From NCBI GenBank assembly GCA_018066005.1, contig JAGHSG010000080.1, positions 1 to 38,094 on the forward strand: a DNA stretch of 38,094 nucleotides. The letters run 5' to 3'. Positions 1-16,636 of the stretch are shown here, one piece after another; position 1 is the stretch's first letter, and the number at the start of each line of letters is the position of its first letter. A model generated the notes under the pieces. That model was not told where the DNA came from. It saw only the letters and a list, made by a program, of their open reading frames with translations, and made no database searches. Source of the stretch: Bacteroidales bacterium. Its GTDB lineage: Bacteria > Bacteroidota > Bacteroidia > Bacteroidales > Paludibacteraceae. Position numbers and translations under genes: made by a program.

Positions 1-35
1 TTTTTCGTTTTTTATTTTCTGTGTTTAAGATTTTA

Positions 36-192
36 ACAAAAACCGACATCTACCCCTTGTGTTTGATGTTATGTCTTTTGCAAGCCATTGCTGCTGTCGC
101 TGTCAGCCAATCTTAGTGAGCAAGCTCCCTGATCTTTTCAGCCACCTACATTATCACCCTATCGGGTTAACATCAACCCCAAGGCGATAAAC
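36..192 (+). repeat. Cloverleaf-like dispersed element, copy 1 (type B)
   Basis: ACAAAAACC at 36-44; helix CCTTGTGTTTGATGTTA (55-71) / TAACATCAACCCCAAGG (168-184); hairpin ACCC(TATC)GGGT just before the right arm; CGATAAAC at 185-192. Confidence 0.75.
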
Positions 193-303
193 AACGCGCT
201 TTGCGCTAAAAACAATTCATCAGTAGCCACGCCAGTGGCGCATCAATTCAGCAATTCATCATTTAGCCCTTTGGGGTCCCCGACACGCTTGCGCTTTATT
301 TCT

Positions 304-457
304 GTTTATCGTCTTGAAGAGGATGATGCCTTCTGGAGGAAGGTGATGGTATGAGGACAGGATTGTATAGGAAAACGTGTTTTCATGGAAAATCATGAAC
401 TCATAGCAGCAGGTACAATAGTACTCATCCTATTCAAGAGGTTTTTATGGTTTTTGT
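304..457 (-). repeat. Cloverleaf-like dispersed element, copy 2 (type A, inverted)
   Basis: GTTTATCG at 304-311 and GGTTTTTGT at 449-457 (reverse complements of the family ends); helix CTTGAAGAGGATG (313-325) / CATCCTATTCAAG (426-438); hairpin CCTTC/GAAGG at 329-343. Confidence 0.75.
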
Positions 458-462
458 CTATT

Positions 463-1634
463 TTATTCCCTCAGCGCAGCGTTCTTATTCTTATCAATCA
501 GTGCATTAATAGTCTTTACGGACTCTCCTGTGGTAAGCCCGTCCTTAGGTGTATTCATGCAATAATCCACGAGTTGCTCCACGGTTGTAGTAGCCACGTG
601 CATACGTGTGTCGGAAGACGCGTAGTAAATCAGAATACGTCCGTCAGGGTCCTTTATCCAACCGTTGGTAAACAGCACGTTCATCACGTCGCCGATATAT
701 TCTTCTCCCTGCGGTGCCATGAAATAGCCGCCGGGGGTGGCGATAGGGCGCCATGGTTCATCCAAGGCAGTCATGTATAGATATAATACATAGCGTAATC
801 CGCTGGCGCATCCGCGCACGCCGTGTGCGAGGTGCAGCCAACCGCGGTCGGTCTTGATAGGATGAGGACCTTCACCGTTCTTAACTTCTTTGATAGTGTG
901 GTATAGCGTGCGTCGATGATGGTTTCTTCTTTCACCTCGGCATGCGTCATATCATCTACGAGTGCCCAACCTATGCCGCCACCGTTTCCGGCGTCGATAA
1001 AGCCGTCTTGCGGTCGGGTGTAGAGGGCATACTTACCTTGCACAAACTCGGGGTGCAGCACCACGTTACGCTGTTGGGACTTCGTTTTCAGGTCTGGCAG
1101 CCGTTGCCATGTGACGAGGTCTTTGGTTCGCGCTATTCCGCAAGTGGCTGTAGCAGCACTCAAGTCACCCGGGCATGAGTCGTCGTGCCGTTCTACGCAG
1201 AACAGACCATATATCCATCCGTCCTCGTGTTGGGTGAGACGCATGTCGTATATGTTGGTTGCGGGGATGGTGTCTTCGGGCATAGTGATAGGACGTTCCC
1301 AGAAGCGGAAATTATCAATACCGTTAGGGGATTCGGCTACGGCGAAGAAAGACTTGCGGTCGTTTCCCTCTACGCGGCATACGAGCAGGTATTTGCCATT
1401 GAGGTAGATAGCACCGCTATTAAGGACAGCATTTACTCCGATGCGTTCCATCAGATAGGGGTTGGTCTCGGGGTTGAAATCGAATCGCCACGTGAGGGGA
1501 GCATGAGCGGCTGTCAGAATAGGGTACTGATAGCGTGTGTAAATACCGTTGATACTTGGCAGGGGTACATTTTCCCTTGATAGTAAGTTTTCTTGTTGTT
1601 GTAATAAAAAGTTTTTACGTTCTATAAAATTCAT
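463..1634 (-). CDS. GH130 beta-mannoside phosphorylase (4-O-beta-D-mannosyl-D-glucose phosphorylase-like), interrupted by a frameshift near 903-915
   Basis: ORF 771-1634 carries the N-terminal GH130 fold ([39 protein letters not shown]); the other frame continues [31 protein letters not shown]...[17 protein letters not shown]...[13 protein letters not shown] into ORF 463-819. Confidence 0.85.
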
Positions 1635-4110: not shown

Positions 4111-4237
4111 GATTGTGTGTAGTTTTGTTGCACATATTCTTCGTCCGTTACCATCGTGTTCAAGTCCTAACAATGTCCTAACATAGTCCTAACATGAACG
4201 GGCGATGAGTTTTTTATTTCCTGTGTTTGAGTGTTTA

Positions 4238-4392
4238 ACAAAAACCGAGATTTACCCCTTGTGGTTGATGTTATGTCTTTGCAAGCCATTGATGCTATAG
4301 TTGTCTGCAAATCTTAGTGAGCAAGTTCCCTAATCTTTTCAGTCATCTACATCATCCCCTATCGGGTTAGCATCAATCACAAGGCGATAAAC
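4238..4392 (+). repeat. Cloverleaf-like dispersed element, copy 3 (type B)
   Basis: ACAAAAACC 4238-4246; helix CCTTGTGGTTGATGTTA (4257-4273) / TAGCATCAATCACAAGG (4368-4384); CCC(CTATC)GGG hairpin; CGATAAAC 4385-4392. Confidence 0.75.
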
Positions 4393-4443
4393 AACGCTTC
4401 GCTTCAAAAACAATTTCCATCATTCCATCAATTCATCAGTCCA

Positions 4444-14197: not shown

Positions 14198-14331
14198 ATA
14201 AAAAAGTTTTATTTATAAAAATAAATACAAGACAAAATGCAGTCGGTGAAATTTACTGCAAAAAGATAGATAAAAAAGTATCAGCAGAAGCGAGGGTACA
14301 ATGCCTTGCGACCTTCGCCATATCGACTTTG

Positions 14332-14485
14332 ACAAAAACCATAAAAACCTCTTGAACAGGATGGGTACTATTGTACCTGCTGCTATGAGCGTGTGAAAAT
14401 CCTTGTATGCAAGCATCCAGATATTTTTACCCACTCATACCATCACCCTCCTTTAGAGGCTATCATCCTCTTCAAGACGATAAAC
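14332..14485 (+). repeat. Cloverleaf-like dispersed element, copy 4 (type A)
   Basis: ACAAAAACC 14332-14340; helix CTTGAACAGGATG (14351-14363) / CATCCTCTTCAAG (14464-14476); GGTAC(TATT)GTACC; TATGAG/CTCATA; CCTC(CTTTA)GAGG; CGATAAAC 14478-14485. Confidence 0.8.
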
Positions 14486-14646
14486 CTCGCGTTCGGCAAC
14501 AAATCGCAAATGGCTGATACCACTCCGTTTAATCAGCAAGCGACTTGTGCCTCCGCTCTCCCCACCACGCAAGCGTGTCGGGGACCCCGAAGGGCAGAAC
14601 GCAATTGGTTAATCGGTGAGTCGGTGAACCGGTGAGTTGGGGAAAT

Positions 14647-14735
14647 GGTGTTTGCGCAAGCGCAATTGATGTAGCGCTGACGCGCTTGTTGTTTGCCTAA
14701 CGGCAATTGTTGTTCCGCCGATGGTGGATTGATGT
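14647..14735. repeat. 89-bp array of small hairpins, copy 1
   Basis: 87/89 identical to 16116-16204 by eye; TTGCGC-AA-GCGCAA, TAGCGC..GCGC, GCC..GGC, TCCGCC-GAT-GGTGGA separated by TTGATG/TTGTTG. Confidence 0.85.
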
Positions 14736-15024
14736 GTCGCCGGACTAAAAAAAGCGGTAAAAACCGCTTGAATGGATTTTTACCGCTAAAGGGAGATTTT
14801 GAAATTGCTTCGCGAGGGATTCTCCCGCAGATTTCGCAGACTTTTTTTATCACAAGGTTGTGTCATGTTGTTGCCGCCAAAAGCCAACTCGTTGGCGGGG
14901 CGGACACAACATCCATACACAACCCACGAAGAAACAAAGAAAACAAAATCGGTTGACGATTGACAATGCACAATGCACGAGGGTTGATGGGCGATTAACC
15001 GATTAACCGAAGGTAGAGGGAGAA

Positions 15025-15721
15025 TTAGAATTGTGTTAAAAGGAAAGACATATACATCGGAAGGGTGAGTAACTTGCCCTCGCGACCAACATTATAATCG
15101 CCTAACTTAATGGCATGCGAGACATGATATTTCACCTCGTTGTTCATCACCGTTTTCAACGATTTGGCATTACCCGTCCGCGCTTTGCATTCAATAGGTA
15201 CACATTCACCCTGATAGCGGAACAAAAAGTCCAATTCCACCCCACCATCTTTATGGTAATAATAAAGCTTGCGTCCCATTTTACCTAAAACATCCGCCAT
15301 CACATTCTCGTAAATAGCCCCTTTATAGGTCCCTAACTGACCTTGCACAATACTACTCGCCGTTCCCGACTCAAGCATGCTGACAAATAGTCCGGTATCC
15401 GCCATATAGACCTTGAATTCCGAATAAATGGCATTGCCGTCTAATGGTAATTCGGTTGTCTCAGTATTATAGGCACGGCGAATCATTCCCGCGCCTTCAA
15501 TCCACTGCAAACATCCCGCATAGTCACGACCACGTGCATTAGTACGCACAGCTGAATACATGAACTTCTTATTCTCACGCGCTAATTGTTTAGGAATAGA
15601 ATTGAAACATTCTACAATACGTGACTTATCCGCATTGACGGCAACCCTTTATCACCAACGGCTTGCGATGGGGAGTATTCTTCCATGTTTCAAATATGTG
15701 CTCTATCTTTCGTCTAAACAT
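15025..15721 (-). pseudogene. AAA ATPase / DUF4143-family gene remnant with large internal deletion
   Basis: N-terminal piece MFRRKIEHIFETWKNTPHRKPLVIKGCRQCG (15721-15626, ends in stop) then, in another frame, DKSRIVECFNSIPKQLARENKKFMYSAVRTNARG... DUF4143-like tail to 15025; the ATPase core between is missing. Confidence 0.8.
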
Positions 15722-15913
15722 ATATTGTTGTATTACAGCGAATTATTATATATTGTACACATTTTCATACTGACTTTTTGCCTAGTTTGTCACGTTTTAC
15801 CCTATGACTTTTGTGTAATATCTCACAAAATCTGCTGCAAAATTACAAAAATTATTCCATATACGCAAGTTTTTTGCAAAAAAACATACAAAAGTACTGT
15901 TGCGATAAAATAA

Positions 15914-16062
15914 ACAAAAACCATAAAAACCTCAGAAAACCAATACGCAGCGTTGCTGCTAACGTGCTAAACACATTCATAAAGTCCTATTATGCAAGCA
16001 TATAGTCCTTTCTGTATTTCTTTATCATAGTCCTACAGACTATTGGTTTTCTGACGATAAAC
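15914..16062 (+). repeat. Cloverleaf-like dispersed element, copy 5 (divergent type A)
   Basis: ACAAAAACCATAAAAACCTC start; perfect 13-bp helix CAGAAAACCAATA (15933-15945) / TATTGGTTTTCTG (16041-16053); GCAGC(GTT)GCTGC; ATAAAG/CTTTAT; AGTC(CTACA)GACT; CGATAAAC 16055-16062. Confidence 0.78.
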
Positions 16063-16115
16063 AGATATAAACTATTAGTTTATGGGGAATCGGTGAATTG
16101 GTGAGGCGGTGAGGC

Positions 16116-16204
16116 GGTGTTTGCGCAAGCGCAATTGATGTAGCGCTGACGCGCTTGTTGTTTGCCTGACGGCAATTGTTGTTCCGCCGATGGCGGATTG
16201 ATGT
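16116..16204. repeat. 89-bp array of small hairpins, copy 2
   Basis: Near-identical to 14647-14735; the two differences keep the hairpins. Confidence 0.85.
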
Positions 16205-16636
16205 TTCACGGACGCAAAAAAGATGTTCGTGGAGCGTCCGTGAAAACGTCCGTGAGATGGCGAAAAGTCAGTAAATACGGCACTATGCAAATCTTCGTGA
16301 AGTCGTGAATTCTCGTGAAGTTCACGAGATTTCACGGATGTTCATTTTTACAAAAAAGTGGAGTTAGGATATTGAGGATTTAGAGGATTTGCGTTGGTTG
16401 AAATCCTCAAAATCCTCAAAATCCTCAAACTATAACACGTCCCTCGCGCTACGCCACGATATATCGTGCTCGGGACGGAGTTATAGAACGCTGCGCTAAT
16501 TGAACGGCACGGAGCCCTAGTAGAACGCTGGCGCTAATAGAACGCAAGCGGGGCGTTAGGACGGTGCATCGCTCCGTTAAGGGCTACGCCATCGTTATAA
16601 CGCTTCTTAACGTCGCTCGCGCAATTAATGTTATAC

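Follow-up and report, generated by a model that had tools for sequence, protein, structure and literature searches.

A cloverleaf-folding interspersed repeat of uncultured Bacteroidales, with a GxxExxY-type predicted nuclease as its candidate partner

The bcr1 repeats of Bacillus cereus and the intergenic palindromes of the ERIC/YPAL type are folded, mobile-looking and similar in size to the repeat described here. They are set apart from it by description and occur in other hosts, and we know of no cloverleaf or partner nuclease among them. The closest described systems are the REP and REPIN sequences with their TnpA-REP (RAYT) enzymes, i.e. the REPtrons, which are described as dispersed, structured intergenic repeats with over-represented inverted doublets and a dedicated enzyme gene beside or among the copies at a few sites (PMC3116915, PMC8266576). 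Our repeat is likewise intergenic and multi-copy with dozens of matches per genome, has an excess of inverted doublets and has one enzyme gene among its copies. However, a REP unit is a palindrome of 20-50 nt with a GTAG-type foot and the REPtron enzyme is an HUH tyrosine enzyme, whereas our unit is a four-way junction of ~160 nt with GTTTAT/GGTTTTT tails and the protein encoded next to it has a predicted PD-(D/E)XK fold. Given this different unit and other enzyme class, the cloverleaf family is not a member of the REPINs. A subset of the cloverleafs is bounded by matching inverted ends and has a 9-bp duplication, as in IS4-type MITEs (DDE_Tnp_1 + DUF4372), but most copies have no such ends and there is a covarying fold inside. 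The neighbour protein belongs to the GxxExxY family (TIGR04256 / PF13366 PDDEXK_3), of which only two clades adjoin cloverleafs. In the open-licence PMC literature GxxExxY is used to label a gene adjacent to a reverse transcriptase; our searches of that literature found no mention of PDDEXK_3 and no description of this cloverleaf repeat.

The window, i.e. the whole 38,094-nt stretch of a Paludibacteraceae contig that was analysed, contains five full elements, of which copy 5 is the one under study. The assembly of the same genome (1.45 Mb in 180 contigs, with 79% completeness) provided 11 copies, which form three subtypes (A, B and C) with rewritten stems; the copies outside the window include two that are 95-96% identical to copy 5, and the other two subtypes are represented as well. 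We built the model R1 from these 11 copies and the covariance model R2 from an alignment, A5, of 58 elements, none of them from the window's genome. Models were used for the searches because a strict sequence pattern gave only two copies, both in the own genome. The elements of the window and the parts of copy 5 are as follows.

30-198, minus strand: copy 1, cloverleaf element of subtype B, left member of a divergent pair (R2 67.1 bits, E=2.3e-11)
298-463, plus strand: copy 2, cloverleaf element of subtype A, right member of the divergent pair (R2 79.2 bits, E=1.1e-13)
4232-4398, minus strand: copy 3, cloverleaf element of subtype B (R2 72.3 bits, E=2.4e-12)
14326-14491, minus strand: copy 4, cloverleaf element of subtype A (R2 82.3 bits, E=2.9e-14)
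15908-16068, minus strand: copy 5, full cloverleaf element of subtype C, core 15914-16062 (R1 136 bits; R2 74.2 bits, E=1e-12)
15893-15907, minus strand: right-end motif TATCGCAACAGTACT, which also adjoins several other copies
15908-15931, minus strand: 3' T-rich tail of copy 5, GAGGTTTTTATGGTTTTTGTTTATTT, conserved across alignment A5
15932-15945, minus strand: one strand of the P1 closing stem, TCAGAAAACCAATA on the plus strand, in a 14-bp perfect inverted repeat with 16041-16054
15947-15959, minus strand: P4 hairpin GCAGC-GTT-GCTGC, placed by motif position, R2 alignment and fold
15963-16027 (ends approximate), minus strand: P3 long arm, placed by R2 alignment
15987-16005, minus strand: P3 tip hairpin, CTATTATGCAAGCATATAG, which is TATGCTTGCATA on the minus strand
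16030-16040, minus strand: P2 hairpin (GTC-CTACA-GAC on the plus strand), placed by R2 alignment and cluster fold
16041-16054, minus strand: other strand of the P1 closing stem, TATTGGTTTTCTGA on the plus strand, in the same 14-bp inverted repeat

Copies 1 and 2 are 99 nt apart, and the right-end motif of copy 5 is common to near-identical copies at G000:C24 and C46. A sequence-only reading of copy 5 had pointed out that it begins like copy 4 (ACAAAAACCATAAAAACCTC at 14332 and 15914), that GCAGCGTTGCTGC at 15947 stands where copy 4 has GGTACTATTGTACC (14364), and that it contains an internal hairpin, CTATTATGCAAGCATATAG at 15987, sharing TATGCAAGCAT with copy 4 (14406 and 15991); each of these observations is correct. 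The 13-bp inverted repeat that it reported, CAGAAAACCAATA at 15933-15945 and TATTGGTTTTCTG at 16041-16053 with 95 nt between, is present too, and its true length is 14 bp. This is the longest perfect inverted repeat of copy 5; none of 2000 dinucleotide shuffles reaches 13 bp, the maximum being 11. The limits given, 15914-16062, mark the core; 15908-16068 are better limits for the whole element, whose sense is on the minus strand. The core folds with z scores of -3.9 (minus strand) and -5.5 (plus strand), and 0 of 200 shuffles were as stable on either strand. In the minimum fold of copy 5 as a single sequence the P2 bases are paired differently.

Several other features were seen around copies 4 and 5. 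Both are followed, at unequal distances, by a 138-nt stretch (14615-14752 and 16084-16221, 86% identical) with many short palindromes (GCGCAAGCGC, CTGACGCGCTTG). Between 14599 and 22667 the intergenic sequence has numerous degenerate tandem words of 8 nt (GGTGAATC, GGTGAGGC), including family D1 with 22 register copies. Copy 5 is adjoined by a 178-aa ORF on the minus strand (15025-15561) whose sole match is DUF4143; two longer ORFs adjoining copies at G000:C46 (L002) resemble it, and DUF4143 is matched by 3 of the 148 ORFs neighbouring cloverleaf elements.

Copy 5 is a full member of a family of ~160 nt that folds into a four-way junction, or cloverleaf, made of the closing stem P1, the hairpin P2, the long arm P3 with a GCTTGC-type tip and the hairpin P4. 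The R1 search gave matches in 29 of 101 relatives, nearly all full length, and 94 distinct elements taken from these R1-positive relatives and from further loci formed 16 clusters at the chosen cut. Ten clusters were folded and showed P1 to P4, least cleanly in the two-member cluster 11. In all ten the minus sense had the lower energy of the two strands, and it is this best-folding sense that bears the conserved tails. In A5, 85.9% of the cells are paired, versus 69.9% after shuffling and 42-55% when the partners are slid; two-sided changes occur in 41 of the 46 pairs and in 439 cells, compared with 141 in shuffles. There are 161 G-U cells versus 76 A-C cells (328 versus 251 in shuffles), an excess that is a modest sign that the minus strand may be the folded one. 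The covariation between the 5' and 3' tails, striking by eye, did not hold up, with 10.08 for own tails versus 9.72 ± 0.16 for swapped ones and 10.09 for the best swap.

The cleanest test of the finding is that R2, although trained on foreign sequences only, recovers all five window copies with E values from 2.9e-14 to 2.3e-11. The proposal that structure rather than sequence is conserved is thereby borne out for copies 4 and 5, which fall in different sequence clusters and share the same P1-P2-P3-P4 plan. Copy 5 had been put forward as the most informative single case, and it does support the fold, but much stronger evidence comes from outside the window. Rfam 15 had no match in the whole window at the gathering cut-off, and in E-value mode 20 element loci gave only a tRNA and two further matches, both weak and unrelated; ARAGORN found no tRNA or tmRNA gene in the window. 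Some variants are longer, at about 240-260 nt, and have additional hairpins that separate the conserved ends from P1 (L084:1523-1775, L111:2793-3054, L296:1738-1987).

The hosts are uncultured Paludibacteraceae and other Bacteroidales, mostly from the gut. Of the 120 relatives searched with R2, 42 gave matches; every one of these is in the window's genus, to which about 73 of the 120 belong. Across the order, 4 of 295 genomes matched, two of them being of the window's genus and two giving weak matches. A pattern scan of public genomes placed the hosts in Paludibacteraceae and elsewhere in Bacteroidales, with rumen and the gut of horses and pigs as frequent sources. The copies per genome reach a few dozen, enough to saturate the fast search; three genomes had 53, 33 and 24 matches, opposite-strand echoes included. 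The weak R2 loci in G301, a genome of another Bacteroidales family, have the same cloverleaf (z scores of -5.6 and -8.2 for the two folded), and three of its loci (L249, L253, L256) each have a divergent pair whose tails differ from those of the genus. Three pattern matches came from viral contigs, of which the two that scored had at most 19.6 bits with R2, and among four pattern-matched contigs from outside Bacteroidales the two that gave a score had at most 14.8 bits.

The cloverleaf copies behave as mobile repeats, judging from their turnover between orthologous sites, their decay, their nesting and an occasional carriage in IS4-type MITEs. Only 14 of the 146 elements with both neighbours known overlap an ORF of at least 100 aa by more than 20 nt, and the other 132 do not. 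At the dusB site, elements are present in 2 of 30 loci, those of G002 and of G003, its nearest relative, where they flank the gene on both sides and differ in sequence, and 25 of the other 28 loci have the same gene pair without a match. Decayed copies with deleted arms or reduced to 5' or 3' halves exist, and in L060 one copy is nested inside another. Among 135 elements in 98 stretches, 21 neighbours are closer than 400 nt; 15 of these are divergent, 6 are tandem and none is convergent, and 95 of the 135 are single by this measure. No target duplication was found at the ends of the pairs. Many copies are close to the end of a contig, at about 250 nt or less (L036, L038, L043 and others), as would be expected if near-identical repeats break assemblies.

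The cloverleaf could be passive cargo of DDE transposons, i.e. the elements would be IS4-type MITEs with inverted ends CAYTASTGTCCACT and the core-only copies would be worn MITEs. G008 and three relatives do have a near-identical unit of about 280 nt with inverted ends, alike from -100 to +19 around the core, and one copy of this group has a 9-bp duplication ATAAGTAAT (L076). L118:1317-2639 is an intact IS with matching inverted ends CATTAGTGTCCACTAAAAA, a 9-bp duplication ATCTTTTTT and a transposase of DUF4372 and DDE_Tnp_1, an architecture that we take to be IS4-type. But this IS contains no cloverleaf, most copies have only the core in common, and a partial motif scan, whose patterns missed the G008 group, found the right end in only 13 of 94 elements and both ends in 1 of 94. 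Moreover, pairing in 86% of the cells with double changes is not expected of passive cargo, and we regard this explanation as unlikely.

We consider it similarly improbable that the elements are genes for small RNAs, or cis-acting RNA elements, which the cell retains for some function and which duplication has spread. The strong covariation with G-U pairs and the single best-folding strand in all ten clusters would agree with it, as would the terminator-like T-rich tail after P1 and a TATGTTTAT motif at the element's 5' end, a candidate -7 box by what we take to be its resemblance to that of Bacteroidales. Against it, the orientations relative to the upstream and downstream genes are mixed (-- 67, ++ 42, -+ 20 and +- 17), so the cloverleaf has no fixed place as a leader or as a 3' element; within a single genus some species have no copies and others dozens; copies are absent at orthologous sites; truncated relics exist; and neither the window nor the 20 loci has a relevant Rfam match.

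Some widely spaced divergent pairs enclose genes. In L176, L203, L153 and L067 this is a GxxExxY gene; in L152 the pair encloses no more than a gene related to the TPR gene that is found in L176. Four of the neighbour proteins score 110, 95, 108 and 104 bits against TIGR04256 (cut-off 35). To avoid circular selection we searched for the TIGR04256 family by protein in 91 genomes, independently of the repeats (tblastn and the family model), and the 46 loci read were classed by their proteins and scanned with R2. A cloverleaf is present at each of the 9 FLNEYMY-clade loci, with E values from 7e-22 to 6e-6. At the 6 GLPEYIY-clade loci the matches are all weak (E from 1e-5 to 0.014), the one in L341 lying about 780 nt off, and the 31 other GxxExxY loci have none in the R2 scan. 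The nine FLNEYMY loci are not nine independent events, because they represent only five gene neighbourhoods: mutA, L336, L333, rimO-recQ and an ABC-transporter locus. The names mutA, rimO, recQ and dusB are our own assignments from the proteins, and a Pfam match backs only that of the mutase. In two genomes the rimO-recQ site has GxxExxY genes of two different clades (L332 and L334).

The clade protein has invariant D83, E93 and K95. Its structure model (pLDDT 90.5) resembles PD-(D/E)XK nucleases and has as best PDB match 4ic1, SSO0001 (Foldseek E 4.3e-5, Z 8.9), presumably a Cas4 protein. The model and the D..ExK residues thus point to a PD-(D/E)XK fold and a predicted nuclease. The Holliday-junction resolvase Hjc also matched (Z 6.1), in a range that is common for the tool, and no claim here rests on it. 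PADLOC gave no match for four proteins, and the 25 most matched families of the 148 neighbour ORFs include no transposase, no recombinase and no HUH TnpA-REP.

On the side of the negatives, an order-wide search with an FLNEYMY profile gave 29 further GxxExxY loci, none with a cloverleaf, and the short G301 loci with cloverleaf pairs have no FLNEYMY-type gene among the matches listed. The assembly of the window's genome, at 79% completeness, has one GxxExxY gene, of another clade; in the assemblies searched, the repeat-rich G002 has none above the cut-off and G006 has none.

An attC-like site at which DNA in hairpin or cruciform form would attach or recombine, with cassettes exchanged by a site-specific recombinase, would fit the different repeat sequences at the same orthologous sites (dusB; rimO-recQ with its two gene clades) and the genes tightly enclosed by divergent copies, but it is very unlikely given the lack of a recombinase among the 25 families shown for the neighbour ORFs, an end similarity barely different between own (10.08) and swapped (9.72 ± 0.16) ends, and no sign of ordered cassette arrays in those loci that were read.

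The fold, its covariation, the dispersal, the inverted pairing, the sequence turnover, the decay and the gene association are all shown by the data. As to what copy 5 is, we see about an even chance that it is a non-autonomous, interspersed mobile repeat of a REPIN/REPtron-like kind with a PD-(D/E)XK nuclease of the GxxExxY clade as its candidate partner. In the best reading its functional part is the folded four-way junction on the minus strand. The best candidate for the enzyme, on gene position, is the GxxExxY clade encoded next to, and often between, divergent cloverleafs. It is a more tentative proposal, to which we give rather less than an even chance, that this small Cas4-like nuclease recognises the cloverleaf as single-stranded DNA or RNA and spreads it as inverted pairs and singles in a REPtron-like manner; we know of no REPtron that uses an enzyme of the PD-(D/E)XK class. 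We infer both the role of the nuclease as the mover and the RNA or single-stranded DNA as the working form. In such a mechanism one strand of the repeat would fold into the cloverleaf, as single-stranded DNA or RNA, the nuclease would recognise the junction together with the conserved tails, and it would then cut or copy the unit into new intergenic sites; the copies would drift, keeping their pairing while active, and then decay.

The main points against the nuclease as the mover are that the own genome, the repeat-rich G002 and G006 have no gene of the clade in their assemblies and that DDE transposition carries some of the copies. Also against the reading as a whole are the predominance of single repeats, the five neighbourhoods behind the nine FLNEYMY loci, the order-wide GxxExxY loci without a cloverleaf, the pair ends without target duplication and the modest G-U excess. 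The system may be older than the window's genus, since the cloverleaf also occurs, with different tails, in another family (G301).

A large and strongly covarying fold that is absent from Rfam 15 gives this group of uncultured gut bacteria a ready marker, and with several copies at contig ends it helps explain where the assemblies break. If the link to the nuclease holds, it would offer a testable function for part of the GxxExxY protein family, which is common and unstudied, and the Cas4-like reading, if true, would make it the first function for that part. It would also represent a second, unrelated way for small folded repeats to spread in bacterial genomes.
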